DNA of 64,000 bases from Streptomyces albogriseolus (GTDB taxonomy: Bacteria; Actinomycetota; Actinomycetes; Streptomycetales; Streptomycetaceae): positions 1-64,000 of the forward strand of contig BMVA01000012.1 of NCBI GenBank assembly GCA_014650475.1, written 5' to 3'. The translations under genes were made by a program, and so were the position numbers. The notes beneath the pieces were generated by a model. It did no database searches, was not told the DNA's origin, and saw nothing but the letters and a program-made list of their open reading frames with translations. Every line of letters begins with the position of its first letter. The first letter of the stretch is position 1. Positions 5,524-63,978 of the stretch are shown here, one piece after another.

Positions 5524-5546
5524 GGTGGCCGGGGTGGCGGGGGTCG

Positions 5547-7958: not shown

Positions 7959-8393
7959 ATGGCACCCGAGTCGCGTAGGGACAGGACACTGGCCGGCGAG
8001 GAGATCACGAACCGCATCGCCAGCTTCCCGGGGGAGCTGCACGATGTGACGGACGCACGTCTGGTCGCGGAGGAATTCCTCTTCGACCTGGCCCGTGCGT
8101 CGGCGCCGTCGGCGCCGGAGCACTGGGACGACATACTCCTGGTGGTCACGGAACTGGCCGCGAACGCGGTGCAGTACGCCCCCGGACCGTTCGAGCTGCG
8201 GCTGCGCCGCACGTTCGACGGGGTGCATGTCGTGATGCACGACACCAGCACCACCGAGCCGGCCCCGCGCCCGTTCCATCCGCACAGCGGCGGGGGCGGC
8301 ATCGGGTGGCATCTGATCCACACGCTCTGCGACCAGGTGAGCGTCGTGACCCACGAGCGCGGGAAGGACATCCACGTCTTCCTGCCGTGGTGA
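7959..8393 (+). CDS. Anti-sigma-factor-like ATP-binding protein (HATPase)
   Basis: A 144-residue single-domain GHKL ATPase of the RsbW/SpoIIAB-related kind that is abundant in Streptomyces. The N-box reads VVTELAANAVQYAPG and the C-terminal G-rich lid GGGIGWHLIHTLCDQV is clear. Such proteins bind or phosphorylate sigma factors or STAS antagonists. It is monocistronic by spacing, with no sigma or STAS gene attached, so its partner is unknown. It may act on the large stress operon starting 760 bases downstream. ATG 7959 has an AAGGCG-type ribosome site. Confidence 0.88.
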   Translation: MAPESRRDRTLAGEEITNRIASFPGELHDVTDARLVAEEFLFDLARASAPSAPEHWDDILLVVTELAANAVQYAPGPFELRLRRTFDGVHVVMHDTSTTEPAPRPFHPHSGGGGIGWHLIHTLCDQVSVVTHERGKDIHVFLPW

Positions 8394-8891: not shown

Positions 8892-8916
8892 ATACCCCTC
8901 CGACGGGCACACATTC
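8892..8916 (-). promoter_or_regulatory. Sigma-B-type promoter of the PRC-barrel gene
   Basis: Reading on the minus strand, GAAT (8916-8913), a 15-base spacer and GGGTAT (8897-8892) match the streptomycete sigma-B-group consensus GNNT-N14-16-GGGTAY exactly. The predicted transcript starts near 8885, giving a 50-base leader before the start codon at 8834. Confidence 0.55.
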
Positions 8917-9046
8917 GAACGGCGCCCGCCGAAAGCGGCCGGCCTGGCGGGGCGGACGTGAAATCCGTTCAGGTACCCCGCCTCGGCGGGAACATGCACA
9001 CCGGGAACCGTGATTCTCGACGGGTCCCGACGGCCGGCGTCCTGCT

Positions 9047-9076: not shown

Positions 9077-9151
9077 GCGGCGTATTTCTCTCCGCGCGAC
9101 TCCGCTGATCTGCGGAAATGCGCTCTTAATGGGGCCGGAACGAGGGTGCGC

Positions 9152-12100
9152 ATGACCAGCAGAAGCACCGAGGGGACCGACACGGTGCCGGGGGACAAGG
9201 AGCTGAGGCAGCTCCTCGCGGGACTGACGGCCGTACGGGACGGGGACTTCGGTACCCGGCTCCCCGCTGACGCCGACGGACTCATGGGGGACATCGCCAA
9301 GGTCTTCAACGGCATGGTGGACCAGCTGTCGCTGTTCACCTCCGAAGTCACCCGTGTCGCCCGAGAGGTGGGTACGGAGGGGACGCTCGGCGGTCAGGCG
9401 CAGGTGCCGGGGGTCTCGGGCACCTGGGCGGACCTCACCGACTCGGTGAACGCCATGGCGGGCAACCTCACGGCGCAGGTCCGCAACGTCGCCCAGGTGA
9501 CGACGGCGGTGGCGAAGGGCGACCTGTCGCAGAAGATCACCGTGGACGCCCGCGGCGAGATCCTCGAACTCAAGAACACCATCAACACGATGGTCGACCA
9601 GCTCTCCGCCTTCGCCGACGAGGTCACCCGCGTCGCCCGCGAGGTCGGCACCGAAGGACGCCTCGGCGGACAGGCGGACGTGCAGGGGGTCAGGGGCACC
9701 TGGCGCGATCTGACCGACTCGGTGAACTTCATGGCCGGCAACCTCACCGGCCAGGTGCGCAACATCGCGCTGGTGGCGACGGCGGTGGCGCAGGGCGACC
9801 TGTCGCAGAAGATCACCGTGGACGCCCGCGGCGAGATCCTCGAACTCAAGAACACCATCAACACGATGGTCGACCAGCTCTCCGCCTTCGCCGACGAGGT
9901 CACCCGCGTCGCCCGCGAGGTCGGCACCGAGGGGCGCCTCGGCGGACAGGCCCAGGTGCGGGGGGTGTCAGGCACCTGGAAGGACCTCACCGACAACGTC
10001 AACGTGATGGCGTCCAACCTGACCGGCCAGGTGCGCTCCATCGCCCAGGTCGCCTCCGCGGTGGGCCGGGGCGACCTGTCGCAGCGGATCCGCGTCGAGG
10101 CGGCCGGCGAGGTCGCGGCGCTCGCCGACGTCATCAACACGATGGTGGACACGCTGTCCGCGTTCGCCGACGAGGTCACCCGTGTCGCCCGCGAGGTCGG
10201 CACCGAGGGACGCCTCGGCGGACAGGCGCACGTGCCGGGTGTCGCGGGCACCTGGAAGGACCTCACCGACAACGTCAACTCCATGGCGAACAACCTCACC
10301 GGCCAGGTGCGCAACATCGCGCTGGTGACGACCGCGGTGGCCCGGGGCGACCTGTCGAAGAAGATCGACGTCGACGCGCGCGGCGAGATCCTGGAGCTGA
10401 AGACGACCATCAACACGATGGTCGACCAGCTCTCCGCCTTCGCCCAGGAGGTCACCCGCGTCGCCCGCGAGGTCGGCACCGAGGGACGCCTCGGCGGGCA
10501 GGCGGAGGTCGAGGGCGTCTCCGGCACCTGGAAGCGGCTCACCGAGAACGTCAACGAGCTGGCCGGGAACCTCACCCGGCAGGTCCGCGCGATCGCCGAG
10601 GTGACCAGCGCGGTCGCCGAGGGCGACCTGACCCGCTCGGTGAACGTGGAGGCGTCCGGCGAGGTCGCCGAACTCAAGGACAACATCAACGCGATGGTGG
10701 AGTCCCTGCGCGAGACCACCCGGGCCAACCAGGAACAGGACTGGCTCAAGACCAACCTGGCCCGGGTGTCCGGGCTGATGCAGGGTCACCGCGACCTGCC
10801 CGTGGTCGCCGAACTGATCATGGACGAGCTGGTGCCGCTGGTGTCGGCCCAGTACGGCGCCTTCTACCTCGCGGAGGACGGCGAGGACGGCCCCGAGCTG
10901 CGCCTCGTCGGCTCCTACGGCTACCCGGACGACAGCGGGCGGCCGACGCGCATCCCCTTCGGCAAGACGCTCGTCGGGCAGGCCGCGCGCAGTCGGCGCA
11001 CCATCATGGTGGACGCACTGCCGCCGGACTACGTGACCATCTCCTCCGGGCTCGGCCAGGTGGTGCCGACCGCCCTGGTGCTGCTGCCGATCGTGGTCGA
11101 GGGCCAGGTGCTCGGCGTGATCGAGCTGGCCTCGGTGACCCCGTTCACCCAGATCCACCAGGACTTCCTCGCGCAGCTGATGGAGACCATCGGCGTCAAC
11201 GTCAACACCATCGTGGCGAACGCCCGCACCGACGAGCTGCTGGTGGAGTCGCAGCGGCTCACCGGCGAACTTCAGGAGCGGTCCGCGGAGTTGCAGACCC
11301 AGCAGGAGGAACTGCAGCGCTCCAACGCCGAACTGGAGGACAAGGCGGCGCTGCTGGCCGCGCAGAACCGGGACATCGAGGCGAAGAACCTGCAGATCGA
11401 GCAGGCCCGGCAGGAACTCGAGGCGCGGGCGCAGCAGCTGTCGCTCGCCTCGAAGTACAAGTCGGAGTTCCTGGCGAACATGAGCCACGAGCTGCGCACC
11501 CCGCTCAACAGCCTGCTGATCCTGGCCCAGTTGCTCGCACAGAACCCCTCGCGCAACCTCTCCCCCAAGCAGGTGGAGTACGCGCAGATCATCCACTCGG
11601 CGGGCTCGGACCTGCTGCAGCTGATCAACGACATCCTCGACCTGTCGAAGGTCGAGGCGGGGAAGATGGACGTCAGCCCCGAGCGGGTGGAGCTGCGCCG
11701 CCTCGTCGAGTACGTCGAGGCCACGTTCCGGCCGATGACCATGCAGAAGAGCCTGGACTTCACGGTGACGACCGCGCCGGGCGCGCCCGCGGACCTGCTC
11801 ACCGACGACTCGCGGCTGCGTCAGGTGCTGCGCAACCTGTTGTCCAACGCGGTGAAGTTCACCGAGCGCGGCCAGGTGGAGCTGCGGATCGAGCCGGCCC
11901 CGGACGACGAGGTGCCCCAGCAGGTGCTGCGGGGCGGCCCCGTGGTCGCCTTCCGGGTGCGGGACACCGGCGTGGGCATCCCGGAGCAGCACCTGGAGTC
12001 GATCTTCGGCGCCTTCCAGCAGGCCGACGGCACCACCAGCCGCAAGTACGGCGGCACGGGCCTGGGCCTGTCCATCACGCGGGAGATCGCGCACCTGCTG

Positions 12101-13156
12101 GGCGGCGCGGTCACCGTGGACAGCGTCGCGGGCCAGGGCTCCACGTTCACGCTGTTCCTGCCGGTGGCCCGGCCCGACTTCGAGCAGCAGCTGCGGCCCG
12201 CGCCGGCCGTGGAGGGCGAGCCGGCCGGGGAGGAGCTGCCCGAGGCCGCGTCCGGCCGGACGCCCGCGATCGAGGCGGCCCCCTCCCAGCAGGGCCGGCG
12301 TCCGCGCCGGCTGCTGGTGGTGGAGGAGCGGCCCCGGGGGCTGCTCACCCTGGTCGCGGAGAGCGTGGTCCAGGACGTCGCGCACACGGGCGGCGGCTCC
12401 CGTCCGGCGGTCGACATCATCACCGCCGTCGGCGCCCAGGAGGCGGCCGGTGCGCTGGCCGCCGACCCCTGCCACTGCGTGGTGCTGGAGCTGGGCATGG
12501 CGGAGGCGGAGGTGACCCGCTTCCTGGAGGCGCTGCGCGGCGACTCCGCCCTGGCGAGCGTGCCCGTCCTGGTGCACAGCGGGCACCGCGCCGACGCCGG
12601 GGTGGAGGCGAGCCTGCGCGAACGCGCCTCGGGCACGGCGCTGGAGTTCCTGTCCAGCCTGGACGAGCTGCGGGAGCGGATCGCGCTGCACCTGTCGGCG
12701 GAGGAGCCCGGTGACGTGCTGTCGCTGGTGCGCCCGGACGAGGCGCAGCGGACCGCGCCGGAGGCCGTGGTGGACGGCTCGTTCGCGGGCCGGACCGTGC
12801 TGGTCGTCGACGACGACGCGCGCAACCTCTTCGCGCTCAGCGGCATCCTGGAGCTGCACGGCTTCCGGGTGCTGCACGCCGAGGACGGCCGCAAGGGCAT
12901 CGAGAGACTGGTGGACAACCCGGACGTGGCGCTGGTCCTGATGGACGTGATGATGCCCGAGCTGGACGGGTACGCCGCCACGGCCGAGATCCGGTCGATG
13001 CCGCAGTACGCGGACCTGCCGATCATCGCGGTGACCGCGAAGGCGATGCCCGGGGACCGGGAGAAGAGCCTCGCGTCGGGCGCCAGCGACTACGTCACCA
13101 AGCCGGTCGACAGCCGTGAGCTGATCGCCTGCGTGCGCCGCTGGCTGCCGGCATGA
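9152..13156 (+). CDS. HAMP-repeat hybrid histidine kinase with pseudo-receiver and receiver
   Basis: A 1334-residue cytosolic group III-like hybrid kinase with no membrane segments. Residues 10-525 hold at least five 92-residue HAMP-pair repeats ([11 protein letters not shown] recurs every 276 bp). A GAF domain spans about 550-690, a long coiled coil 690-770, HisKA has [12 protein letters not shown] with His779, and the HATPase follows at 880-1010 (N-box [21 protein letters not shown]). A degenerate receiver at 1050-1185 has EE for the acidic pair and Glu in place of the phospho-Asp. A complete receiver ends the protein ([13 protein letters not shown], Asp1265; TAKAMP; TKPVD). Fungal Nik1 and many actinobacterial relatives sense osmotic stress this way. 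ATG 9152 follows GAGGG. The stop overlaps the next gene by four bases. Confidence 0.95.
9347..10465 (+). repeat. Tandem 276-bp coding repeats encoding HAMP pairs
   Basis: The element GTCACCCG...GTCGCCCG starts at 9347, 9623, 9899, 10175 and 10451, an exact 276-bp (92-codon) period. Between the second and third units, 139 bases (9516-9654 and 9792-9930) are identical, pointing to recent duplication or gene conversion. Confidence 0.9.
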
Positions 13157-15567
13157 GCGTCCAGGACCACGTGGGCGAGCCGGCGCCCGAGGAGATGGAG
13201 CTGCGGCGCACCCCGGCGGGTCCGGCCGGGGTGCCCGCCGACTCCCCCGTGGGCCGGCTGGCCGCGACGGTGGACCGGCTGAGCCGTGAGGTGCGGGCCG
13301 CACAGGCGGAGGCCGAGGGGCGGGCGCTGATCGAGCTCGCCAAGGGCATCCTCGTGGAGCGTCTCGGGTGCGGTCCGGCGCAGGCGGCGCGGCAGCTCGC
13401 CGAGCTGACCGAGCAGGCCGGGTCGACCCAGCTGGAGTTCGCCGTCGAGGTGATCAACCAGGCCGCCCGGGACCGGATGTCCGAGGTGACGGACGCCTTC
13501 CTGGCCGCGACCCGGGCGGCCGGTGAGGCGGAGGCGGACCCGGCTGCCGTGCGGCTGCGGGCGGCGGAGAGCGGGGCGCTCGCCGCCGACGACACCCAGG
13601 CGGTGGCCGAGTCGCTGCTGGAGCAGGCGCTGCGTCCGCTGGGCGCGGTGGCCGTGGCGATCTGGGCGGCGGGGGCCGACGGGTCGCTGACCCTGGCCGG
13701 CAGTGCGGGCTTCTCCCCCGCCGAGGCGGCGCGCTGGTGCTACGTGCCGCCGGACGTGGCGACGGTCGCGCGGTGCGGTCTGGCCGAGCGTGAGGGGCTG
13801 TGGATCGAGTCGCTGTCGGAGCGGGGGCTGCCGAGCGTGGGCCGGCACCACCACCCCGACGGCGGGCGGGCCGCCGTGCCCGCCGGCACCGGCGGGCGTG
13901 TGTACGGCGTGCTGGAGATCGTCTGGCCGGCGCCGCTGCCCCCGCAGCCGCCGCAGATCGTGCGTCAGGTGGAGGCGCTGGCCGAGCTGTGCGCGCACAC
14001 CTTGGAGACGTACACGGCGCCCGGCGGGCCCGCCCGTCCGCAGCGGGTGCTGCCGGACGCGGCCGAGCTGATGGACCTGGCCGACGGGCTGTACGACCCG
14101 GCCCTGGTGCTGGTGCCGCACCTGGACGAGTCGGGGAACCTGCTCGACTTCCGCATCCAGCACGTCAACAGCCGCTTCCTGGACCCGGCGGGCCGGCCGC
14201 GCGGCATGGTCGGCGGGGCCCTGCTGCTGGAGGCGTACCCGATGGCCGCCGGGGAGAGCGAGCTGTTCCAGCGGATCGAGCGGGTGTACGCCACGGGTGA
14301 GCCGTTCCGCGCCCGGCGCATGCATCTGACCGCGCTGGTCGACCAGGTGCCGCTGTCTGCCGTCGCGGACATCAGCGTCAGCCGGCACGGTGCGGGGATC
14401 CTGTTCATCTGGCGGATCGAGGACGAGACGGCACGGCTGGCCAGTCTCCTTCAGCACGCGCAGCGGCTCGGCCGGATCGGCGGGTTCGAGGAGAACCTGC
14501 TGACCGGGGAGATCACCTGGAACGACCAGCTGTTCGACCTGTACGGGCGTCCGGAGATCAGTCCGCCGGTGCCGCTGGAGGACCTGCCGGCGCACGCGCA
14601 CCCGGACGACGCGGTCGCCATCGGCCGTTTCCTGCGCACGCTGCTGCACCACCGGCGCCCGGCCTCGGCCGCGTTCCGGCTCCAGCGGCCGGACGGTGTG
14701 ACCCGGCACATCCGGGTGGTCGCCGAGCCGGTGCTGGACACCGACGGGCGGCTGCTCACCGTACGGGGCGCCTACCAGGACATCTCGGCGCAGCACTGGA
14801 CCGAGGTGGCGCTGGCGGCGACCAGGGACCAGCTCGCGCACACCGAGCAGCAGGCGAGCGAGCGGGACCGGCTGGCGCTGCAGCTGCAGCGCGCGATCAT
14901 GCCGCCGACGCAGGCGCCGCTGCAGATGCCCGACCTGGACGTGGCCGTGCGCTACCGGCCCGCCGAGGCGGAGCAGCTGGTGGGTGGCGACTGGTACGAC
15001 GCGGTGGTGCTGCCGTCCCGTCTGGTGCTGCTGTGCGTGGGCGACGTCGCCGGTCACGGCATCGAGGCGGCGACCAGCATGGTCGTGCTGCGCAACGCGC
15101 TGCGCGGGCTCGCCGTCACCGGCGCGGGTCCCGGGCAGCTGCTGTCGTGGCTGAACATGGTGACGCACCATCTGACCGGCGGGGTCACGGCCACGGCGGT
15201 CTGCGGCCTGTACGACCCGGCCACCCGCGTCCTGCGGTGGGCGCGGGCGGGTCATCTGCCGCCGGTGCTGGTGCGCGGCTCCGAGGCGGCCCCGCTGCCG
15301 GCGGTGAGCGGTCTGCTGCTGGGCGCCCTCCCCGAGGCGCGCTACGAGGAGGGCGAGGTGCAGCTCGCCGCGGAGGACAACCTGCTGATGTACACGGACG
15401 GGCTGATCGAGCGCCGGGACCGCTCGGTGGAGGAGTCGCTGACGCATCTCCTCACCACCGCGGCCACGGTGCCGGGCACGCTCGACCAGCGGCTCGACCG
15501 GCTGCTCACGTACAGCAGGTCGGACACCGACGACGACACCTGCATCGTGGGGATCAGGGTGGGGTAG
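13153..15567 (+). CDS. ANTAR-GAF-PAS-PP2C serine phosphatase
   Basis: An 804-residue multidomain protein. Residues 30-105 form an ANTAR RNA-binding-like domain (ALIELAKGILVERLGCGPAQAARQLAELT). Residues about 140-280 look like a GAF domain. Two PAS-like regions follow at 300-545, the second containing a FDLYGRPE ... HPDDA pattern. After a short coiled coil the C-terminal 215 residues are a SpoIIE/RsbU-type PP2C phosphatase (GGDWYDAVVLP, VGDVAGHGIEAA, ARAGHLPPVL, YTDGLIERRD, TDDDTCI) with the metal-binding aspartates present. It overlaps the hybrid kinase by four bases (ATGA), so the two are translationally coupled. Its likely substrate is the phosphorylated STAS protein encoded next. An ANTAR joined to a phosphatase is an unusual architecture. 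Confidence 0.93.
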   Translation: MSVQDHVGEPAPEEMELRRTPAGPAGVPADSPVGRLAATVDRLSREVRAAQAEAEGRALIELAKGILVERLGCGPAQAARQLAELTEQAGSTQLEFAVEVINQAARDRMSEVTDAFLAATRAAGEAEADPAAVRLRAAESGALAADDTQAVAESLLEQALRPLGAVAVAIWAAGADGSLTLAGSAGFSPAEAARWCYVPPDVATVARCGLAEREGLWIESLSERGLPSVGRHHHPDGGRAAVPAGTGGRVYGVLEIVWPAPLPPQPPQIVRQVEALAELCAHTLETYTAPGGPARPQRVLPDAAELMDLADGLYDPALVLVPHLDESGNLLDFRIQHVNSRFLDPAGRPRGMVGGALLLEAYPMAAGESELFQRIERVYATGEPFRARRMHLTALVDQVPLSAVADISVSRHGAGILFIWRIEDETARLASLLQHAQRLGRIGGFEENLLTGEITWNDQLFDLYGRPEISPPVPLEDLPAHAHPDDAVAIGRFLRTLLHHRRPASAAFRLQRPDGVTRHIRVVAEPVLDTDGRLLTVRGAYQDISAQHWTEVALAATRDQLAHTEQQASERDRLALQLQRAIMPPTQAPLQMPDLDVAVRYRPAEAEQLVGGDWYDAVVLPSRLVLLCVGDVAGHGIEAATSMVVLRNALRGLAVTGAGPGQLLSWLNMVTHHLTGGVTATAVCGLYDPATRVLRWARAGHLPPVLVRGSEAAPLPAVSGLLLGALPEARYEEGEVQLAAEDNLLMYTDGLIERRDRSVEESLTHLLTTAATVPGTLDQRLDRLLTYSRSDTDDDTCIVGIRVG

Positions 15568-15669
15568 GTCACCCGGGCGGCCGATCGGGCGGACGGAGGA
15601 ATGAGCGGGCGATTCGGGGGTACGCGCGGCTGCGCGACGAAGAGCTTGATCACCTTGTTGGAGGTACTC

Positions 15670-16062
15670 GTGCCCATTGCCCAGGACCCGTTGTCCGTCG
15701 AGGTGACACTTCCTCGTGAGGATGTGGCCCTCGTCACCGTCGAGGGCTACTTGGACGTCGACACGGCGACCGAGTTCCAGCACCACCTGGCGAACCAGCT
15801 GCACCACGGGCGCCGGCACTTCCTGCTGGATCTGTCGGAGGTTCCGTTCATGGACTCCTCCGGCATGAACATCATCCTGCGCGTCTACCAGGAGGCGCGG
15901 GAGCTGCCGGGGAGCGTGCACATCATCTCCCCCACCCCCGCGGTGCGCCGGATCCTCGATCTGACGGGCGTCAGCATCACCGTGCCGGTGTCGGACAGCG
16001 TCGACGAGGCGCTGGAGCGCGTCGACCGGTTCCAGGCGGCCCCGTCCGAGCCCGAGGCCTGA
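15670..16062 (+). CDS. RsbV-like anti-anti-sigma factor (STAS)
   Basis: A 130-residue single STAS domain (DVALVTVEGYLDVDTATEF ... EVPFMDSSGMNIILR). MDSSG holds the phosphorylatable serine (Ser63 or Ser64) of the RsbV/SpoIIAA family. GTG 15670 is selected because a perfect GGAGG sits five bases upstream (15660-15664); the frame extends to 15601 without family similarity. It lies 102 bases after the PP2C gene, its probable dephosphorylating partner. When unphosphorylated it should bind a HATPase anti-sigma factor and free a sigma factor. The specific partner is unknown. Confidence 0.93.
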   Translation: MPIAQDPLSVEVTLPREDVALVTVEGYLDVDTATEFQHHLANQLHHGRRHFLLDLSEVPFMDSSGMNIILRVYQEARELPGSVHIISPTPAVRRILDLTGVSITVPVSDSVDEALERVDRFQAAPSEPEA

Positions 16063-16130
16063 GCGGGACCGCCCCGCCCGGTCCCGGCACGGGTCCGGGC
16101 GCTTGTGACGACGAGGAAGAGAGCAGACAG

Positions 16131-17030
16131 GTGCAGGAGCACGAAGCGGACGCGACCCAGGCGAGCCCCGCCCGGGAGGTCGGGGACTTCCTGCGGCGGC
16201 GACGGGAGCAGGTCGCCCAGCGATGGGCCGACGAGCCCCTGTTCCGCACGGTGTTCACCGTCTCGCGCGACGAGGCGGTGGACGCGGGCCGGGTGATCGT
16301 GGACGCGCTGGCCCAGGTGGCCGACGCGCAGCGGATCGAGGACCCGGACGCCGCGGGATTCACCGGGGTCCGCGAGCAGCTCGCCCGGATGGGGGCGGCC
16401 CGCTCCCGCGCGGGGCTGTCCACCACCCAGGTCTCCAGCGAGCTGGCCGCGCTGCTGCCGCCGGTGGAGAACCTGCTGGTGGCCGATCTGGCACAGGAGG
16501 ACCCCGAGCGGCGGCGGGAGTGCGCGACCGCGCTGAGCGTGCTGATGGGCACGCTGCGGCTGGTCACCATGCAGACCGCGCTCAGCGAGAACCAGGCCCT
16601 GATAGACCGGCAGCGGCTGCAGCTGCTGGAGGTGGCGACACCGGTGATCAAGCTCTGGGACGGGATCGTGGCGGTCCCGCTGATCGGGACGCTGGACAGC
16701 GCCCGCAGCCAGGTGGTGATGGAGACGCTGCTGAACGCGGTCGTCGACCAGCACGCCCGGTTCGCGATCCTCGACATCACCGGCGTGCCGACGGTCGACT
16801 CGCTGGTCGCGCAGCACCTGATGAAGACGGTCGCCGCCGCCCGGCTGATGGGCGCGGAGTGCGTCGTCTCCGGCATCCGCCCGGCGATCGCGCAGACCAT
16901 CGTCCACCTCGGCCTCGACCTCGGCACGGTCAAGACCCGCGCGAGCCTCGCCGACGCGCTCGGGTACTGCCTCCACGAGCTGGGGGCGAACATCGTGAAC
17001 GCCCCGGCCGAGGGTGCGGTCCGGCGGTGA
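16131..17030 (+). CDS. rsbR: RsbR-like stressosome scaffold protein
   Basis: A 299-residue protein with an N-terminal all-helical sensor-like region (about 1-165, similar in kind to the RsbRD/RsbRA N-domains) and a C-terminal STAS domain. The STAS core reads ARFAILDITGVPTVDSLVAQHL, where Ser224 occupies the position phosphorylated in RsbR proteins. IRPAIAQTIVHLG is also characteristic. In Bacillus, RsbR and RsbS build the stressosome and hold the RsbT kinase. The GTG 16131 start has GAGGAAGAGAG upstream. Its stop overlaps the start of the RsbS-like gene (GTGA), implying coupled synthesis. Confidence 0.92.
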   Translation: MQEHEADATQASPAREVGDFLRRRREQVAQRWADEPLFRTVFTVSRDEAVDAGRVIVDALAQVADAQRIEDPDAAGFTGVREQLARMGAARSRAGLSTTQVSSELAALLPPVENLLVADLAQEDPERRRECATALSVLMGTLRLVTMQTALSENQALIDRQRLQLLEVATPVIKLWDGIVAVPLIGTLDSARSQVVMETLLNAVVDQHARFAILDITGVPTVDSLVAQHLMKTVAAARLMGAECVVSGIRPAIAQTIVHLGLDLGTVKTRASLADALGYCLHELGANIVNAPAEGAVRR

Positions 17031-17440
17031 GCGAACACTACGCCCGCCCGGTCGCGGGCCATGTGCCGGTGCTGCGGCTCGGGGACGTGCTGCTGGTCAC
17101 CCTCCAGGGCGACCTGCACGACGGCATGGCGTCCCAGCTCCAGCAGGACCTGGCCGAGACGATCGCCGCCAGCCGGGTCACGGGGGTGGTCATCGACATC
17201 TCCGGAGTGGAGATCGTCGACTCCTTCCTGGGCCGGGTGCTGGCCGAGACCGCGGCGCAGACCGAGCTGCTGGCCGCGCGGACCGTGGTGGCGGGGATGC
17301 GGCCGGCGGTCGCCATCACGCTGGTGGAGCTGGGCCTGACGTTCCCGGAGCTGCGTACGGCGCTGAACACCGAGGCGGCGCTGGCGCTGCTGGCGCAGCC
17401 CGTCGTGGCGAACCGGCCCGACGGCGAGGGGAGACCGTGA
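17027..17440 (+). CDS. rsbS: RsbS-like stressosome STAS protein
   Basis: A 137-residue single-domain STAS protein closely resembling Bacillus RsbS: GVVIDISGVEIVDSFLGRVL followed by AGMRPAVAITLVELGLTF. Ser66 matches the serine phosphorylated by RsbT to release the kinase. It begins at GTG 17027, overlapping the rsbR-like stop, and its own stop overlaps the rsbT-like ATG at 17440. The strict R-S-T order with overlaps is the conserved stressosome arrangement. A short C-terminal extension after about residue 118 is not conserved. Confidence 0.94.
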   Translation: MSEHYARPVAGHVPVLRLGDVLLVTLQGDLHDGMASQLQQDLAETIAASRVTGVVIDISGVEIVDSFLGRVLAETAAQTELLAARTVVAGMRPAVAITLVELGLTFPELRTALNTEAALALLAQPVVANRPDGEGRP

Positions 17441-17883
17441 TGGACACCGCCGCGGACGTCGAGGCGCGGCTGCCCATCCGGTCGGACATGGACCTCGCGT
17501 GGGTGCGTCAGCACGTGCGGCAGGCCGCGACCCGGGTCGGCTTCGGTCTGGTGGACCAGACGAAGCTGGTGACGGCCGCCAGCGAGCTGGCCCGCAACAC
17601 GCTGGTGCACGGCGGGGGCGGCGTGCTGGAGACGTCGCGGGTCACCGCCGCCGACGGCACGGCCGGGCTGCGGCTGACCTTCTCCGACGAGGGCCCCGGG
17701 ATCCCGGATCTCGAGCGGGCCCTCAGTGACGGCTACACCTCGGGCGACGGACTGGGCATGGGGCTGGGCGGGTCGAGGCGCCTGGTGCACGACTTCGAGG
17801 TGGACAGCACCCCGGGGGCGGGCACCACCGTGCGGGTGACCTCCTGGGTGTCCCGGCCGGTCCGGCCGCGCGGGGGCGCGTGA
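17440..17883 (+). CDS. rsbT: RsbT-like serine kinase / switch protein
   Basis: A 147-residue GHKL ATPase of the RsbT class. The N-box is TAASELARNTLVHGGGG, the G1 box is FSDEGPGIPDLERAL, and the lid GDGLGMGLGGSRRLVHDFEVDS matches RsbT rather than RsbW. In the paradigm it phosphorylates RsbS and RsbR, leaves the stressosome and activates an RsbU-type phosphatase. Candidate targets here are the PP2C proteins encoded on either side. ATG 17440 overlaps the previous stop by one base and has GAGGGGAG upstream. Confidence 0.94.
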   Translation: MDTAADVEARLPIRSDMDLAWVRQHVRQAATRVGFGLVDQTKLVTAASELARNTLVHGGGGVLETSRVTAADGTAGLRLTFSDEGPGIPDLERALSDGYTSGDGLGMGLGGSRRLVHDFEVDSTPGAGTTVRVTSWVSRPVRPRGGA

Positions 17884-18953
17884 TGCCGCGCGTCCGGCAC
17901 GTGCCGGTGCACGACGCGACCCGGGTGCGCGACGTCAGGGTGGCGGCGGAGGAGGCCGCGGCCCGCGCCGGGCTGGACGAGCAGCGCCGGGCGGCGTGCG
18001 CGCTGGTGGCGACGGAACTGGCGACCAACCTGCTCAAACACGCGACGGCGGGCGAGGTGGTGGTCGACGTCGTCGATCCCGCCGTGCTGCCCGAGGGGCG
18101 GCTGGGACGGGCCGTGCAGATCACCGCCCTCGACCACGGGCCGGGCATCGCCGACGTGGCCGGCGCGTTCGAGGACGGCTTCACCACCGGCGGCTCGCTC
18201 GGCGCGGGTCTGGGGACGTGCCGGCGGATCGCCGACGCGTTCGGCCTGCACAGCGTGGTGGGCCGGGGCACGGTCGCGGTGGCCCGGATAGGGCCCGCCA
18301 CGGCCGGACCGGTCCCCGCGGAGGGGGAGCCGGTGCGGTCGCTCGGCGTACACGCGGGCGGTGTCAACGTGCCGTTCGCGGGCGCGGAGCTGTCCGGGGA
18401 CGCCTGGTCGTGGGTGCGGTCGGGCGACCGGGTGACGCTGATGCTGGCGGACGGTCTCGGCCATGGCGCCGAGGCCGCCCGCGCCTCCGACGCCGCCGTC
18501 GAGGAGCTGCGCCACTGCGCCCGGCTGCCGCCCGCCGAGCTGCTCCAGCGGCTGCACACCGCGCTGTCCGGGACCCGCGGCGCGGCGGTCGCCGCGGTGC
18601 AGCTCGACACCTGGACCGGGCGGCTGCGCTTCGCGGGCATCGGCAACGTGACCGCGCGGCTGCGGGACGGCGGGCGCTGGCGGACGCTGCTGTCCCGGCC
18701 CGGGATCGTCGGCGCGCACCGGCCCCGCACGGTCCGCGAGGACGAGGCGGACTGGACCCGTGAGAGCCTGCTGATCCTGCACACGGACGGGCTGCCGTCC
18801 CGCTGGACGCCGCCCGCGGACACCGGCGTGCCCCCGGCCGACCCGGCCGTGACGGCCGCCGTGGCGGTCCGCGACGCGGGCAGCGCGGCGCGTCCGGTAC
18901 GGGACGACACCGCCGTGGCCGTGCTCGCCAACGTCCCGGAGGCTTCTTCATGA
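17883..18953 (+). CDS. HATPase-PP2C fusion, RsbX-like
   Basis: A 356-residue fusion. Residues 1-140 are a GHKL ATPase (ATELATNLLKHATAG; DHGPGIADV; GGSLGAGLGTCRRIADAF). Residues 160-356 form a compact PP2C domain with LMLADGLGHGAEAARAS and RFAGIGNVTARL, most like RsbX. It directly follows the RsbT-like gene, overlapping its stop, which is where a stressosome-resetting RsbX phosphatase would be expected. The fusion of a kinase-like and a phosphatase domain suggests one protein could both modify and reset STAS partners; that is inference. ATG 17883 is preferred to GTG 17880. Confidence 0.9.
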   Translation: MPRVRHVPVHDATRVRDVRVAAEEAAARAGLDEQRRAACALVATELATNLLKHATAGEVVVDVVDPAVLPEGRLGRAVQITALDHGPGIADVAGAFEDGFTTGGSLGAGLGTCRRIADAFGLHSVVGRGTVAVARIGPATAGPVPAEGEPVRSLGVHAGGVNVPFAGAELSGDAWSWVRSGDRVTLMLADGLGHGAEAARASDAAVEELRHCARLPPAELLQRLHTALSGTRGAAVAAVQLDTWTGRLRFAGIGNVTARLRDGGRWRTLLSRPGIVGAHRPRTVREDEADWTRESLLILHTDGLPSRWTPPADTGVPPADPAVTAAVAVRDAGSAARPVRDDTAVAVLANVPEASS

Positions 18954-20671
18954 CGCGTGCCTGGCGCATCGCGACCGTCACCGACGCGGCCCGCGCCCGG
19001 ATCGCCGTGGCGCGGCTGGCCGCCGCGTGCGGGGTGCCCACCGTGGCCCGGACCCGGCTGGCCACCGCCCTGAGCGGGCAGCTGCGGCAGTGCCTCACCA
19101 AGGGCGGCACATGGCTGCTCACCGTGGAGGGCACCGGCGGCGCGGACGGCGGCCCGGGCGAGCTGCACGTGGTGGTCGTCCCTGCCCCGGACGGCGCCGC
19201 CGGGGAGCGCGCCCCGTGGACGACGGGCGTGCCCTGCCCCGAGCCGGGACGGCTGTCCGAGCCGTGCCCGGTGCCGGAGGAGGCGGCCGCGCTGTCCGAG
19301 GGGCTGCTCGGAGCCGACGAGGACACCTCGGTGGTGCTGGAGGAGCTGACCGAGCAGGAGCGGCTGGTCGCCTTCCACCGGGAGGAGCTGCACCAGACCA
19401 ACCAGGGCGTCCTGGCGCTGCACGCCGAGCTGGACGCGGCGGGCAGGGCGCAGCGGGAGGCGTTCGCGGCGGAGCGCCGGGCCCGCACGGAGGCGGAGAA
19501 CGCGCGGCGGCGGCTGACGTTCCTCGCGGACGCCAGCGCCGTGCTGACCGCGTCGCTGAACCACGACGAAATTCTGCGCCGGCTGCCGGAGCTGCTGGTG
19601 CCGCGGTACGCCGACGGCGTCGACGTCTGGCTGTTCGACCACGAGGACGGCCGGTCGCTGCCCTCCGCCCACCCGGGCGCGGCGGTGCAGGCGGCCCGCA
19701 CCGGGCGCCCGCAGTACGCCGCCGACCACCCCGGGAACCTGCCGGGCGTGGAGGACCGGCCGCCGTCGGCGCTGGCTCCGGACCGGCCGCTGCTGTGCGT
19801 GCCGCTGCTGACGCCGCGCCGGGCGCCGGTGGGCGTGCTGACGCTGTCGCCGCAGGGCGAGCGGTGGGACCCGGACGACGCGGTGATGCTGATCGAGCTC
19901 GCCCGGCGGGCCGGGATCGCCCTGGACAACGCCCGCCGCTTCGAGCACAACCGGGACATCGCGGAGACGCTGCAGCGCGCCCTGCTGACGGAGCTGCCGT
20001 CGGCCCCGGGCGTGGGCCTGGCGGCGCGCTATCTGCCGGCCACACACGGGCTGAACATCGGCGGCGACTGGTACGACGCGTTCCGGCAGCGGGACGGCAG
20101 CCTGGTCACCGTCATCGGCGACGTGACCGGGCACGGGCTGCACGCGGCGGTGATGATGAGCCAGCTGCGCACCGCGCTGCGCGCCTACGCCGTGGACGGC
20201 GACAGCCCCGGACGGCTTCTGACCCGGCTGCACGGCTATCTGCGCCAGCTCCAGCCGGACCTGTTCGCGACGGCCGTCATCGCCCGCTTCCACCCGGACG
20301 ACCGCACCCTCACCTGGGCCGCGGCGGGCCACCCGCCGCCGGTGCTGCGGCTGCCGGACGGCGAGGTGCGCACGCTGGACGCCAAGCCGGGCGCGATGCT
20401 GGGCATCCCGCTGAGCCAGGACATCCCCGACCACACCGAGCGGCTGGCGCCCGGCTCGACGCTGGCCCTGTACACCGACGGGCTGGTGGAGCGGCGCTCC
20501 CGGGGCATCGACCCGGGCATCGAGCGCCTCGGCGCGGCCCTCGCCTCGTTCGAACGCGCGGAGCTGGACACGGATCTGGAGGACGCGGCGGACCGTGTCC
20601 TGCAGCCCCTGCTCAGCGACTCCGAGCGCGACGACGACGTGTGCCTGCTGCTCTGTCACCTGCGCGGCTGA
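18950..20671 (+). CDS. RsbU-type GAF-PP2C phosphatase with degenerate N-terminal domain
   Basis: A 573-residue protein. The N-terminal about 100 residues resemble a truncated or degenerate HATPase-like domain (VARTRLATALSGQLRQCL). A coiled coil spans 125-180 (EELTEQERLVAFHREELHQT). A weak GAF domain occupies about 185-330, then a clear SpoIIE/RsbU PP2C domain (GGDWYDAFRQRDG, VIGDVTGHGLHAA, AAAGHPPPVLRLP, YTDGLVERRS, DDDVCLLL). It overlaps the preceding gene by four bases and closes the stress operon. The coiled coil could be the docking surface for the RsbT-like protein, as in RsbU. Confidence 0.92.
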   Translation: MTRAWRIATVTDAARARIAVARLAAACGVPTVARTRLATALSGQLRQCLTKGGTWLLTVEGTGGADGGPGELHVVVVPAPDGAAGERAPWTTGVPCPEPGRLSEPCPVPEEAAALSEGLLGADEDTSVVLEELTEQERLVAFHREELHQTNQGVLALHAELDAAGRAQREAFAAERRARTEAENARRRLTFLADASAVLTASLNHDEILRRLPELLVPRYADGVDVWLFDHEDGRSLPSAHPGAAVQAARTGRPQYAADHPGNLPGVEDRPPSALAPDRPLLCVPLLTPRRAPVGVLTLSPQGERWDPDDAVMLIELARRAGIALDNARRFEHNRDIAETLQRALLTELPSAPGVGLAARYLPATHGLNIGGDWYDAFRQRDGSLVTVIGDVTGHGLHAAVMMSQLRTALRAYAVDGDSPGRLLTRLHGYLRQLQPDLFATAVIARFHPDDRTLTWAAAGHPPPVLRLPDGEVRTLDAKPGAMLGIPLSQDIPDHTERLAPGSTLALYTDGLVERRSRGIDPGIERLGAALASFERAELDTDLEDAADRVLQPLLSDSERDDDVCLLLCHLRG

Positions 20672-25296: not shown

Positions 25297-26154
25297 TCAG
25301 GCGGTGGGCCGGCCGCCGCCGCGGGCGGAGCGCTGTCCCAGCACGTCGGCGCGCACACGGGCGCAGCTGCGGCTGATCAGGCGGGAGACGTGCATCTGGG
25401 AGATGCCCAGCCGGTCGGCGATCCGGCTCTGGGTCATGTCCTCGAAGAAGCGCATGTAGAGGATGGCGCGCTCCCGCTCCGGCAGGCGCCGCAGCCCCTC
25501 CTTGGCCGACTCGCGGTCGACCACCACGTCGTAGGAGGAGTCGGAGGCGCCGAGGGTGTCGGCGAGGCTGTAGCCGTCGTCGTCGGTGGAGAGTTCGGCG
25601 TCCAGGGACAGGGTGCTGAAGCTCTCCAGCGCCTCCATGCCGGCGGACACCTCCTCCTCGGTCAGCCCGGTGTGGGCGGCGATGTCCGCCACGGACGGCT
25701 CGGGGCTGCCGGGGTTCTGGGTGAGCTCGCGGCGGGCGACGCGCACCTTGTTGCGCAGCTCCTGGATCCGGCGGGGCACGCGCAGCGCCCACATGCGGTC
25801 CCGGAAGTGGCGCTTGACCTCGCCGGTGATGGTGGGGACGGCGTAGCTCTCGAAGGCCCCGCGGCTCGGGTCGAACCGGTCGATGGCCTTGACCAGGCCG
25901 AGGGCCGCGACCTGGCGCAGGTCCTCGATGGACTCGCCGCGGTCGCGGAAGCGGCCGGCGATCCGGTGCGCCATGGGCAGCCAGGCGGTGACGAGCTCGT
26001 CCCGGACCGCGTCCCGCTCGGGTCCGTCCTCGAGGGACGCCAGCCGGGTGAAGAGCGTCGTGGTGTCGGGGGCGTCGTCGTGCCGCCGGCGGGCCGCGGC
26101 GGCGGTCGTCCCGGAGGAGGAGCCGGGACGGGGTGCGGACGTGTCAATGAGCAT
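25297..26154 (-). CDS. Stress-response sigma factor, SigB/SigF/SigG family
   Basis: A 285-residue RNA polymerase sigma factor lacking region 1.1. Region 2 has ESIEDLRQVAALGLVKAIDRFDP and FESYAVPTITGEVKRHFRD. Region 3 follows with PRRIQELRNKV, and region 4 ends with the helix-turn-helix TQSRIADRLGISQMHVSRLISRS. This is the group controlled by HATPase anti-sigma factors. One such gene lies immediately upstream (26363-26806) in the same direction, making it the likely partner. ATG 26154 follows GGGAGCTG. By position it may be the orthologue of S. coelicolor sigM, but I have not assigned the symbol. Confidence 0.94.
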   Translation of the reverse strand: MLIDTSAPRPGSSSGTTAAAARRRHDDAPDTTTLFTRLASLEDGPERDAVRDELVTAWLPMAHRIAGRFRDRGESIEDLRQVAALGLVKAIDRFDPSRGAFESYAVPTITGEVKRHFRDRMWALRVPRRIQELRNKVRVARRELTQNPGSPEPSVADIAAHTGLTEEEVSAGMEALESFSTLSLDAELSTDDDGYSLADTLGASDSSYDVVVDRESAKEGLRRLPERERAILYMRFFEDMTQSRIADRLGISQMHVSRLISRSCARVRADVLGQRSARGGGRPTA

Positions 26155-26362: not shown

Positions 26363-26806
26363 TCACACCAGGGAGACCAGGGCGGTGATCCGCTTGCCGC
26401 CGGAGGGCAGATCGGACACCCGGACGTCGCGGGCCAGCCGGCACACGATGGGCCAGCCGTGGCCACCGGGGCGGCGCCGGCCCTCCTGGTCGACGGGCGG
26501 CACGGCGACGGGCAGGGCGTCGCTGCGGTCGCTGACGGACAGCCGGACCCCGGGGCCGTCGACGTCGACCTCGAAGCCGGTGACTCCCCCGCCGTGCAGG
26601 ATCGCGTTGGTGGTGAGTTCCGATGCGACGAGCAGGGCGTCGGCCAGCGCCTCGGTGTCGCAGGGGGTGCGGGTGGCCAGGCAGCGTTCGGCCACCGCCC
26701 GCAGCACGGCCTCGCGCACCTCGGCGGGCCGGGACGGGCACGGCTGCCCGGCGGGCCGGTCGCCGGGCGGCCGGACAACGGGTTCGGTGAGGTGCTCCTC
26801 GCTCAT
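26363..26806 (-). CDS. Anti-sigma factor-like HATPase adjacent to the sigma gene
   Basis: A 147-residue GHKL ATPase of the RsbW-like kind: VASELTTNAILHGGG is the N-box, and a loosely conserved lid region (GGHGWPIVCRLARDV) follows. The start at 26806 has AGGGAGCC eight bases upstream; the frame runs to 26872 without support. It is 208 bases upstream of the SigB-type sigma gene and transcribed the same way, the standard anti-sigma/sigma layout. It should bind the sigma factor and be released by an unphosphorylated STAS protein. No STAS gene is adjacent, so the antagonist may be encoded in the 15.6-17.4 kb operon. Confidence 0.88.
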   Translation of the reverse strand: MSEEHLTEPVVRPPGDRPAGQPCPSRPAEVREAVLRAVAERCLATRTPCDTEALADALLVASELTTNAILHGGGVTGFEVDVDGPGVRLSVSDRSDALPVAVPPVDQEGRRRPGGHGWPIVCRLARDVRVSDLPSGGKRITALVSLV

Positions 26807-26951
26807 GGGACGGCTCCCTGGATCGTGACAGCGGTAGGCGTTCTTTGCCTCGGATCTCCCTTTTCGGCTCACCTGTCACGGTTCAGGCAAACCTCCCGGA
26901 CGTTTCCCGCCTGCCCGTCATCCCGCGGCCCACCGCGGGTACCCGGGACGC

Positions 26952-60885: not shown

Positions 60886-61043
60886 GCCCTGAGTGAAGCC
60901 GGAAAAGCGGACGGATTCCCTCCGCCCTGATGGTGCTGTGCCGCACCGGCGGCCGTACCATCGGACGAGCAGGTGTGACGGCCGGTGCGCACCGCGTCCC
61001 CCCGAGCGGTCCGGCGCCTTCCGGCCACGGAGAAAATCGACGG

Positions 61044-61068
61044 GCATACGTCCGCGGAACCGGGGTAG
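61044..61068 (+). promoter_or_regulatory. Sigma-B-type promoter of the sigL-like gene
   Basis: GCAT (61044-61047), a 15-base spacer and GGGTAG (61063-61068) match GNNT-N14-16-GGGTAY except for the last base. The leader would be about 43 bases. In S. coelicolor sigL is reported to be under sigma-B control, which would fit. Confidence 0.45.
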
Positions 61069-61117
61069 TCGAGTGACCCAGTCGCGTGGCAGCCATGACG
61101 TTCGTGGGGAGAGGGCA

Positions 61118-62005
61118 ATGAGGACCGCCGTGATCCGGTCGCAGGAGCGGACCGTCGACGGGCATACCAGGGCCGGCGCCGTCGGCGAGGACCTTCGCGG
61201 TCCCGGCGACCCGCGCGCCGTCGCGCCCCACGACGCCCGCGAGCTCTCCCGGCAGTTCTTCCGTCGCCTCGCGGAGCTGGAGGAAGGCACCCGCGAGTAC
61301 CAGTACGCGCGCAACACGCTGATCGAGATGAACATGTCCCTCGTGCGCTTCGCGGCCGGGCGGTTCCGCGGCCGGGGCGACGACATGGAGGACGTGGTCC
61401 AGACCGGCATGATCGGCCTGATCAAGGCCATCGACCGGTTCGAGCTGTCCCGCGAGGTCGAGTTCACCTCCTTCGCGCTGCCCTACATCGTCGGCGAGAT
61501 CAAGCGCTTCTTCCGCGACACCACCTGGGCCGTGCACGTGCCGCGGCGGCTCCAGGAGCTGCGTGTGGAGCTGGCCAAGGCCCGCGAGGAGCTGTCGAGC
61601 CGGCTGGACCGCGAGCCCACCGTCCCCGAGCTGGCGACCCTGATGAACATCAGCGAGCAGCAGGTCGTCGAGGGACAGATCGCCGCGAACGGCTACAACT
61701 CCTCCTCCCTGGACGCCGCGCTCACCGGGGACGGCCCGGAGCACGGCGAGGCCGTCCTGGCCGACTTCATCGGCGTCGAGGAGGAGCGGCTGGCCCTGGT
61801 GGAGGACTTCCACGCGCTCGCCCCGCTGATGGCGGAGCTGAGCGACCGGGACCGCGAGATCCTCCACATGCGATTCGTCGAGGAGGCCACGCAGGCGGAG
61901 ATCGGCGAGCGGCTGGGCTGCTCGCAGATGCACGTGTCCCGGCTGATCAAGCGGATCATCACCCGGCTGCGGACCGGCATGCTCGGCGAGCTGGGCTGCG
62001 CCTGA
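61118..62005 (+). CDS. sigL: Stress sigma factor, SigB/SigF/SigG family (SigL-like)
   Basis: A 295-residue sigma factor. Region 2 reads DDMEDVVQTGMIGLIKAIDRFELSREVEFTSFALPYIVGEIKRFFRD, region 3 begins VHVPRRLQELR, and region 4 has TQAEIGERLGCSQMHVSRLIKRI. ATG 61118 is selected because GGGAGAGGG lies upstream; the open frame to 60893 has no similarity. It lies next to popR-clpP4-clpP3, as sigL does in S. coelicolor, hence the symbol (inferred from position, not computed). Its likely anti-sigma partner is the convergent HATPase at 62093-62548 or another in the window. Confidence 0.93.
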   Translation: MRTAVIRSQERTVDGHTRAGAVGEDLRGPGDPRAVAPHDARELSRQFFRRLAELEEGTREYQYARNTLIEMNMSLVRFAAGRFRGRGDDMEDVVQTGMIGLIKAIDRFELSREVEFTSFALPYIVGEIKRFFRDTTWAVHVPRRLQELRVELAKAREELSSRLDREPTVPELATLMNISEQQVVEGQIAANGYNSSSLDAALTGDGPEHGEAVLADFIGVEEERLALVEDFHALAPLMAELSDRDREILHMRFVEEATQAEIGERLGCSQMHVSRLIKRIITRLRTGMLGELGCA

Positions 62006-62092: not shown

Positions 62093-62548
62093 TCAGCCGC
62101 CGGTGAGGTCGATCACCGCGCGGACGCGTTTGCCGACCGGTACGCGCTCCACGCCGACGTCCCGCGCCAGCGCGCGCACGATCTCCAGTCCATGGCGTCC
62201 GATCCGCTGCGGGTCGCGCGGGAACACGCGGGGCAGGGTGCCGTTGCTGTCGTAGACGGCCACCGTGAGGGTGGTGTCCGTGCCCTCCAGCTCCAGGATG
62301 TACGGCCCGTCGCTGTGCCGGTCGGCGTTGGTGACCAGCTCGCTCACCACCAGGAGCACGGCTCCTTCCGCCTTGGCGCCGATCGTGGCGCACCACTCGG
62401 TCCTCAGCTGCTCGAGGAACTGTGCCGCGACATGCCGCGCCTCGGCGATGCACCCCGGCTCGCCGGTGAAGTGTGCCGCCCGCCGCAGCGGTTCCACGGG
62501 CACGTCGAAACCAGTCGGTATCACTACCCCGTCCAAGCGATAGGTCAT
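62093..62548 (-). CDS. Anti-sigma factor-like HATPase
   Basis: A 151-residue GHKL ATPase, RsbW-like: LLVVSELVTNADRHSDGPY is the N-box, YDSNGTLPRVFPRDPQRIGRHGLEIVRALARDVGVE the rest of the ATP site. The second half of the G-box is modified (GRHGLEIV). The start at 62548 has AGAGGGAAA; the frame to 62797 is unsupported. It is convergent with the sigL-like gene and is the nearest candidate for its anti-sigma factor. No STAS gene is adjacent. Confidence 0.87.
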   Translation of the reverse strand: MTYRLDGVVIPTGFDVPVEPLRRAAHFTGEPGCIAEARHVAAQFLEQLRTEWCATIGAKAEGAVLLVVSELVTNADRHSDGPYILELEGTDTTLTVAVYDSNGTLPRVFPRDPQRIGRHGLEIVRALARDVGVERVPVGKRVRAVIDLTGG

Positions 62549-62718
62549 GCGTTTCCCTCTGCGACGCCGGGCCGGCCGGACGATCCGCACCGGTCCTGGT
62601 ACCCCGAGTCGGCCGGGGCAGTCCTCCTGATCCGCGTCCGGATTTCCCGGGGCCGCGGACCCGCGCGGACGGACCCTGCCGACGGGCGGGCGGGGAGGAC
62701 GCTGCTTAGCGTGCACAC

Positions 62719-63978
62719 GTGAGCGCACACTCCCCTTCTCCTCCGCGGTCCCCCCTTCACGGCTGGATTCCGGCGCTGGTCGCGGTGGCCGGGTCACTGG
62801 CCGCGATGGCAGCGGTGGCGGCGCTGGGGGTCTGGGCGGCCGGGGCCGCGGACCTCCCGGAGGGCGCCTTCGGGCCGGTGCTCGCCGCCGTGCTGGTGCT
62901 CGCCGTCGGCGGCACGGTACGGCTCTCCGGGGACGCCGGCGGCCTGGCCGGGACCGAGGGCGGCCTGACGGCGATCCCGCTGACCGTCACCCTCACCGGG
63001 GCGCTGCTGCTCGGCTGGTTCTTCCTGCGTCCGCTGCGCCGCCGCACGGTGGTGGGCGCGCCCGGGCTGGCGGGGTGGGCGGCGCGGATCGCCGTGCTGT
63101 GGCTGCTCGCCGTCCTGGGTCTGGCTCTGGCGGCGCGGCGCACGTTCGAGGTGTCGCTCGGGGACGACCTGCTCGGCGACCTGGGCGAGCTGTTCGGGGT
63201 GACGCCCGTGGTCGGCTTCGCCGCGGACGTGCTGCCGACCGTGCTGATCGGCCTGGTGTGGCTGGCGGGCGTGCTGGTGGTGGCGGTCCTGGTGTCGCGC
63301 GGCGCGCCGCTGCCGCACGAGCTGATGCGGTTCCAGGCGGGGGCGCGGCCCGCGGCGCGCGCGACGCTGGGGCTGCTGCTCGCCGCCGTGGCCGTGGCGC
63401 TCGTCGTCGCCCTGGTGGTGGCCGCCACCGAGGGACACACGGCCGAGACGTTCGCCGTGATCCTTCTGGGGCTGCCCAACGTGGCCTGGCTCGGGCTGAC
63501 CGTCGGGCTGGGGGCGACCTGGGAGGGCAGGGTGGAGGGGCCGTTCGGACTGCCCATGCCGCAGGTGCTGGACGAGGTGCTGCGCACCCCGGACGTCTCC
63601 GAGCTGAACCTGGGCTCGCTCGTCGACCACGACGGCGGCCGCTGGTGGTGGCTGCTGGTGGGCGCCGCGGTGCTGGTGGCGGCCGCGGCCTGTTTCATGG
63701 CGGCCGCCTCCCCCGCGCGGGTGCCGCCCTGGCAGCAGGCCCTGCGGCTGGCGGTGGCGCTGGCGCTGGCGGTGCTGACGATCGGGCCGACGGCCCGCGT
63801 CTCCGCGCGGATCGGCCTGTCGGTGCTCGGCATCGGCGACCTGGGCGAGGGGCTGACCGGGCAGGTGCTGCTGGAGCCGCAGCTGTGGGGCGCGCTGGGG
63901 CTGGCCCTGCTGTGGGGCCTGGTGGCGGGCTTCGCGGGCGCCTGGGCCGTACGGGGTGTGCGGCGGCGCAGGCGCTGA
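62719..63978 (+). CDS. Streptophobe-family multi-TM protein
   Basis: A 419-residue very hydrophobic protein with about eight to ten membrane helices and short charged loops (LRPLRRRTVVGAPG; VSRGAPLPHELMRFQAGARP), matching the streptophobe family of unknown function. The start is GTG 62719 without a ribosome site; TAGCGT (62707-62712) ends six bases upstream, so it is probably leaderless. The reading frame ends before the window edge. It is divergent from the HATPase gene. Confidence 0.85.
   Translation: MSAHSPSPPRSPLHGWIPALVAVAGSLAAMAAVAALGVWAAGAADLPEGAFGPVLAAVLVLAVGGTVRLSGDAGGLAGTEGGLTAIPLTVTLTGALLLGWFFLRPLRRRTVVGAPGLAGWAARIAVLWLLAVLGLALAARRTFEVSLGDDLLGDLGELFGVTPVVGFAADVLPTVLIGLVWLAGVLVVAVLVSRGAPLPHELMRFQAGARPAARATLGLLLAAVAVALVVALVVAATEGHTAETFAVILLGLPNVAWLGLTVGLGATWEGRVEGPFGLPMPQVLDEVLRTPDVSELNLGSLVDHDGGRWWWLLVGAAVLVAAAACFMAAASPARVPPWQQALRLAVALALAVLTIGPTARVSARIGLSVLGIGDLGEGLTGQVLLEPQLWGALGLALLWGLVAGFAGAWAVRGVRRRRR

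Follow-up and report, generated by a model that had tools for sequence, protein, structure and literature searches.

In partner-switching systems, a PP2C-type phosphatase dephosphorylates the anti-anti-sigma factor RsbV, and the kinase RsbW is thereby taken off its sigma factor (PMC8346170). The phosphatase RsbU is activated by RsbT by way of a linker that joins the phosphatases as dimers; the authors of that work extend the mechanism to PP2C proteins whose sensors are GAF, PAS or other domains (PMC12143880). In Streptomyces, SigB-like sigma factors, RsbW-like kinases and PP2C phosphatases are numerous, and how they are wired together is unclear; the figures reported for S. coelicolor are 45 RsbW and 44 RsbU/RsbP homologues. 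In that species, SCO7325 is described as an RsbV homologue acting with RsbA in SigB activation, and SCO7328 as an RsbW homologue, reported with BldG and interacting with SigB-like factors (PMC8346170). SCO7327 is the hybrid kinase OsaD, thought to sense osmotic stress. In S. ansochromogenes, san7324 encodes RsbR, and its neighbours are described as coding for RsbS, RsbT or a sigma factor; nikkomycin production was lost when san7324 was disrupted, and altered antibiotic production is reported for Streptomyces with disrupted RsbR genes (PMC8465540). Here we analyse a row of eight genes in a 64,000-nucleotide stretch of the Streptomyces albogriseolus genome (contig BMVA01000012.1, positions 1–64,000; hereafter the window), and lean, by a modest degree, towards reading it as a partner-switching hub: two input cassettes, independent of each other, would meet at a single anti-anti-sigma factor, V (RsbV).

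Pfam searches place a complete RsbR/RsbS/RsbT set, a poly-HAMP hybrid histidine kinase, an RsbV-like protein and PP2C phosphatases in a single row of eight co-directional genes on the forward strand (9146–20671), and return all the domains that the preliminary description had named. We refer to the genes, in order, as HK, P1, V, R, S, T, X and P2 (Table 1). Five of the seven junctions overlap, by 1–4 nucleotides, and the two remaining junctions flank V, with gaps of 33 and 68 nucleotides measured from the annotated starts; an alternative GTG start of V lies at 15673, and HK starts two codons off the position first given. The HAMP repeats of HK have a period of 92 residues, and its highest 19-residue hydropathy mean, 1.99 at residue 644, falls within the GAF domain. 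As previously stated, the operon contains no sigma gene, there being no sigma region 2 match in 9146–20671.

Judging from numbering, names and neighbours, the operon is probably the same locus as SCO7325–SCO7328 and san7324. The full eight-gene order is not in the available descriptions of the S. coelicolor and S. ansochromogenes locus, nor is it described in the titles and abstract openings searched, full texts lying mostly outside that search. The genes nevertheless appear to match named and partly studied genes, so that the arrangement can hardly be called new, as had been suggested. Compared with the RsbRST–RsbU–RsbV–RsbW–SigB systems of Bacillus and Listeria, the locus is alike in its R-S-T order, its conserved phosphosites and the downstream logic of PP2C and RsbV, and R, S and T agree with an RsbRST module in domains, predicted phosphosites and gene order. 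Unlike those systems, the row has no sigma gene, and lacks the rsbW and sigB genes that share the operon in Bacillales; moreover, P2 carries a GAF domain rather than a recognisable RsbU_N, and X carries a HATPase domain. HK and P1 are reminiscent of Bacillus cereus RsbK–RsbY, as available accounts present it, in that a hybrid kinase adjoins a PP2C gene upstream of RsbV. RsbY is a PP2C partner carrying a REC domain, whereas P1 combines ANTAR, GAF and PAS and has no REC match (Pfam, E 0.001). The rsbRSTX cluster of Vibrio vulnificus shares the R-S-T-X order and an attached signalling module, but there, in the parts of the report available, the two-component proteins lie downstream and are the presumed output, replacing a sigma factor (PMC9237108). 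OsaA-type poly-HAMP kinases likewise combine HAMP repeats with a hybrid kinase, but are longer than HK. Among the HK matches listed, a second group of about 70% identity covers residues near 67–1045, in frames mostly longer than 1830 amino acids; OsaA is given as 1829 amino acids long, and this group would by its length be OsaA.

A search of the genome collection with V gave 179 relatives, of which the best 80 loci (79 from Streptomyces and one from Kitasatospora) were analysed. All eight genes occur in order, each at more than 50% identity, in 49 of the 80, so the set is ordinary for Streptomyces; one further locus, L035, was left out of this count, as it ends before P2 and its apparent P2 match is the phosphatase domain of P1. 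Conversely, P1 matches of about 38% at the P2 position are P2 itself, and presence was therefore counted by stricter rules. HK-P1 is present in 57 loci, absent from 21 and undecided in two (L053 and L085), and 20 of the 21 loci without HK-P1 retain both S and T. The pair of S and T is complete in 76 of the 80 loci. The four that lack them differ in what is left: L049 retains R, X and P2; L074 retains a short R-like frame and P2; L091 retains P2 and a short T-like stretch; and L073, from S. spiralis, has no R, S, T, X or P2 and retains V and the upstream RsbW-like gene W_up without either cassette. On a quick maximum-likelihood tree of a flanking FUSC-like gene (69 rows), on which gain and loss are indistinguishable, HK-P1 changes seven times and S/T three times, and at least six of the seven HK-P1 changes are forced by well-supported branches. 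That the HK-P1 and RsbRST halves come and go separately suggests parallel inputs, and the natural absence of either cassette around one RsbV provides a ready comparative test of the role of each input.

Gene spacing in the same loci follows the cassettes. Overlaps are frequent within the second cassette (R-S in 75 of 76 loci measured, S-T in 75 of 75, X-P2 in 67 of 72) and seldom seen at the junctions of V (P1-V in one of 41, V-R in none of 78); the gap figures for T-X reflect uncertain starts. The interval between V and R holds about 2 kb of extra DNA in L063, L065 and L087, which in L063 includes a 675-amino-acid frame with weak PP2C similarity. In L070, L075, L076, L081–L083, L086, L090 and L092, all of them loci without HK-P1, a long stretch inserted after the HATPase part and before the PP2C part splits X in the alignment (in L070, a 666-amino-acid frame).

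The catalytic and phospho-acceptor residues of both cassettes are intact. Orthologue alignments were built from rows with at least 80% coverage, at least 55% identity and no internal stop, so that broken or diverged copies are uncounted; the 80 loci supplied 43 rows for HK, 52 for P1, 60 for V, 77 for R, 76 for S, 75 for T, 33 for X and 71 for P2, and the window was added to each. The H-box histidine and REC aspartate of HK are present in 44 of 44 rows, and the PP2C motif aspartate and histidine examined are invariant in P1 (53 of 53 rows) and P2 (72 rows). The MDSSGMN phosphosite motif of V is kept in all 56 rows with letters there (61 aligned, some of them shortened by a wrong choice of start). 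Of the putative phosphosites of RsbR, the first is Thr in 78 of 78 rows, and the second, in which the locus differs from Bacillus and Listeria, is Ser in 77 of 78; the predicted phosphosite serine of RsbS is kept in 77 of 77 rows, the N-box Glu and Asn of RsbT in 76 of 76, and the PP2C and N-box motifs of X in nearly all of 34. Between the kinase and the final, canonical REC of HK, residues of about 1060–1180 read from the sequence as a degenerate REC, for which Pfam gives no match; Glu replaces its phospho-acceptor Asp in 40 of 44 rows and is possibly a constitutive mimic. Among solved structures, RsbR best matches 7o0i_B (E 1.5e-30), RsbR chains such as 7b0u_A (1.3e-25) coming next, and RsbS best matches the RsbS chain 6qcm_A (4.9e-26). 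These matches, together with the recurrence of the same eight-gene order in 49 of the 80 loci, argue that the gene set is not due to chance. The solved matches of RsbT are to SpoIIAB only (3.7e-6), and its identity is less directly supported than that of RsbR or RsbS.

For the hub, we infer the signalling steps, the stimulus, the assignment of each PP2C to its branch, and the RsbW and sigma factor of the output, as follows. In the first cassette, HK would sense a stress, which the analogous OsaD of S. coelicolor suggests to be osmotic, and would control its neighbour P1. In the second, RsbR and RsbS would form a stressosome holding RsbT; upon stress, RsbT would phosphorylate RsbR and RsbS, be released and activate P2, which would take the role of RsbU, and X would reset RsbR and RsbS in the role of RsbX. 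V, dephosphorylated by P1 or P2, would then bind an RsbW-type kinase, either RsbA-like, by S. coelicolor precedent, or the product of W_up, and binding would free a SigB-family sigma factor. This two-branch account is the simplest, and follows partner-switching logic as available reports describe it (PMC8346170, PMC12143880).

The cassettes were also followed in 101 genomes drawn evenly from Streptomyces (P1 at E up to 1e-170, close V at E up to 1e-25). P1 occurs in 40 genomes and is adjoined by HK in at least 39 of them, among the HK matches listed (the remaining genome is G042); RsbS occurs in 51, two weak matches (G012 and G042) being left out. P1 and RsbS occur together in 27 genomes. They lie within 12 kb of each other in six of these (the window genome, G006, G013, G027, G087 and G092), farther apart on one contig in nine, and only on different contigs in 12, which in draft genomes is not proof of distance. 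Where close V is present, it lies near P1 and RsbS in five genomes, near RsbS alone in seven, near P1 alone in three and near neither in two. There are 34 HK-P1 or P1 regions away from RsbS, of which we examined 22, G041 and G026 among them; in the DNA fetched, R, S and T have no match in any of the 22, and V, an RsbW-like gene or a sigma gene is matched in 13, some of these matches being weak or far (G034). In G041, HK, P1, V, W and a sigma gene stand in line with no R, S or T there, and in G026, W_up-V-R-S-T-X-P2 stand without HK-P1, which is on another contig. Two candidate fusions were rejected: HK and P1 are separate frames in G041, and a long kinase frame in G010 has only kinase and receiver matches to the operon genes.

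Several observations weigh against convergence of the two cassettes on V. P2 has no RsbU_N match (for P1 and P2, Pfam at E 0.001; for the P2 N-terminus, also at E 5), although in the available part of one report the majority of the downstream proteins considered also lack RsbU_N (PMC9237108), so that this domain is not a strict stressosome criterion. P1 has no REC, which leaves signalling from HK to P1 without an explanation, and W_up may not encode the partner of V, because SCO7328 is reported with BldG and other sigma factors. The 80 loci were picked by V, so the persistence of V is partly built in and loci without V are invisible among them. In the genus sample, close V occurs in just 17 genomes, as against 51 with RsbS and 40 with P1, and many genomes thus have a cassette and no close V; HK-P1 and RsbS share a genome more often than expected (27 of 101; Fisher p 0.008, uncorrected for relatedness), which points to a possible functional link; nine of the 22 HK-P1 regions examined have no V, W or sigma match; and the count of 13, some of it from weak or far matches, is a raw one over 22 of the 34 regions. 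G006 has HK-P1 immediately downstream of R-S-T-X, with an apparently broken P2, an order that would also fit a kinase acting as stressosome output. We hold our confidence in the hub only slightly above even because of the 17 genomes with close V and the choice of the 80 loci by V. As to G006 itself, the stretch separating X from HK (locus L107, about 4889–6076 of the reverse complement) has fragments resembling P2 in more than one frame, reflecting either decay or an assembly error.

Among the alternatives, the one that survives best, and that we consider unlikely yet worth keeping in view, is that the shared operon brings about co-expression only, V serving one branch and the STAS substrate of the other lying elsewhere. 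The genome offers 20 STAS matches, and where close V is missing each branch must use something else; however, among the 17 genomes with close V, seven have it by RsbS only and three by P1 only, so V is kept with either cassette. It is improbable that HK is a true stressosome input that phosphorylates or binds RsbR, RsbS or RsbT in one linear pathway, the arrangement that the preliminary description regarded as a kinase fused to a stressosome and as a new input. The shared gene row in 49 of the 80 loci and the co-occurrence in 27 of the 101 genomes speak for such a pathway, but some species have the locus without one half or the other, HK-P1 is not near RsbS in 21 of the 27 genomes (12 of these by different draft contigs only), and R, S and T, like P1, have no REC match; moreover, HK stands beside P1 in at least 39 of the 40 P1 genomes. 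Equally improbable is that HK is a stressosome output, RsbT acting on HK or HK signalling needing it, since the precedent of the Vibrio two-component proteins (PMC9237108) and the gene order of G006 are set against an operon in which HK comes first rather than downstream of X, an HK without RsbU_N match (Pfam), and a P1 that has RsbS close by in no more than 6 of its 40 genomes.

Returning to the hub with V at its centre, the N-terminus of P2 offers a lead on how RsbT might act. P2 residues 12–67 align without gaps to RsbT residues 18–73, with one of 500 shuffles as good (eight of 500 for the alignment to X), and at the positions of RsbT Glu49 and Asn53, P2 has mostly Ala or Gly and Gln or Leu, respectively. 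A profile of RsbT alone scores the P2 N-termini at a median of 9.1 bits, the best of 1440 shuffles reaching 6.6, though the rows are related; a mixed RsbT/X/W profile separates P2 poorly, with 41 of 1440 shuffles equalling or exceeding its median of 3.4. HHalign of P2 against RsbT, with shallow alignments, gives a probability of 1.8%, and the P2 N-terminus has no Pfam domain at E 5 and, in two more distant relatives, no HATPase at E 2. The RsbT-only profile favours kinship, whereas no support comes from the mixed profile, HHalign or Pfam; we treat as a suggestive lead that the P2 N-terminus is kin to RsbT but without its catalytic Glu and Asn. It is a tentative and rather doubtful extension that, within an RsbV hub with two inputs, RsbT activates P2 by pairing with this dead RsbT-like copy instead of through an RsbU_N domain, a conserved helical linker then dimerising the PP2C domains; if true, stressosome output in these actinobacteria would be a pseudokinase–kinase pairing, and the poly-HAMP kinase would be a second input to the same switch that can be exchanged on its own. 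Across the phylum, P2 occurs in 14 of 246 genomes.

The gene upstream of the operon, W_up, was missing from the earlier account. In 65 of the 80 V-anchored loci it precedes V and shares its strand, and of the 15 in which it was not seen, 12 end at a contig end and three (L049, L065 and L087) lack it in the fetched DNA. From names and numbering, W_up is probably the counterpart of SCO7328; between it and the operon, an opposite-strand frame at 8427–8999 has no Pfam match. The earlier view that the output must use distant anti-sigma HATPases or the two sigma genes of the window is not supported, as W_up stands upstream of the operon and each SigB-family gene of the window has an adjoining HATPase gene of its own (Table 1). 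The whole genome holds a single RsbRD_N match, which is RsbR, 50 matches to sigma region 2 and 91 to HATPase_c_2, some of the latter under the cut-off. The window contains nothing that fits a SigB-type promoter pattern; chance would give only 0.01 matches there, and the result carries little weight.

Table 1. Genes of the operon and candidate partner-switching genes in the window.
Gene	Position	Strand	Domains and proposed role
W_up	7959..8393	+	RsbW-like HATPase, anti-sigma kinase candidate upstream of the operon; HATPase_c_2, E 3.2e-13
HK	9146..13156	+	Soluble poly-HAMP hybrid histidine kinase; five HAMP stretches, GAF, HisKA, HATPase_c, REC (Pfam)
P1	13153..15567	+	ANTAR, GAF, PAS, SpoIIE (PP2C-type) phosphatase (Pfam)
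V	15601..16062	+	RsbV-like, single STAS (Pfam); proposed shared switch; start uncertain
R (RsbR)	16131..17030	+	RsbRD_N (PF14361, 5e-13) sensor and STAS (Pfam)
S (RsbS)	17027..17440	+	Single STAS (Pfam)
T	17440..17883	+	RsbT-like switch kinase; HATPase (Pfam)
X	17880..18953	+	HATPase-PP2C fusion (HATPase and SpoIIE, Pfam); RsbX-like feedback phosphatase candidate
P2	18950..20671	+	GAF and SpoIIE (Pfam); weakly RsbT-like N-terminus; probable helical linker (read from the sequence); proposed RsbU role
Sigma gene 1	25297..26154	-	SigB-family sigma factor, candidate output; TIGR02980 SigBFG, 278.4 bits (cut-off 234.35)
HATPase gene 1	26363..26872	-	RsbW-like HATPase just upstream of sigma gene 1; HATPase_c_2, 1.1e-11
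Sigma gene 2	60893..62005	+	Second SigB-family sigma factor; TIGR02980, 282.6 bits
HATPase gene 2	62093..62797	-	RsbW-like HATPase adjoining sigma gene 2; HATPase_c_2, 1.1e-8

Elsewhere in the window, 332–3944 (+), a few genes from the stress locus, encodes a maltokinase cap protein and, after it, a glycogen branching enzyme. The frame at 50698–53214 (-) is 838 amino acids long, with a beta-lactamase-family domain (PF00144) in its middle only (397–665), and may be overlong. The gene at 45745–47175 (+) encodes TerD and CAP (cysteine-rich secretory) domains in one protein. At 42231–43907 (+), a response regulator receiver and a pyridine-nucleotide-disulphide oxidoreductase domain are joined in one protein; in S. 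coelicolor, the TrxB-type regulator SCO7298 is listed with the kinase SCO7297, and a counterpart of SCO7298 here would fit synteny with the S. coelicolor region.

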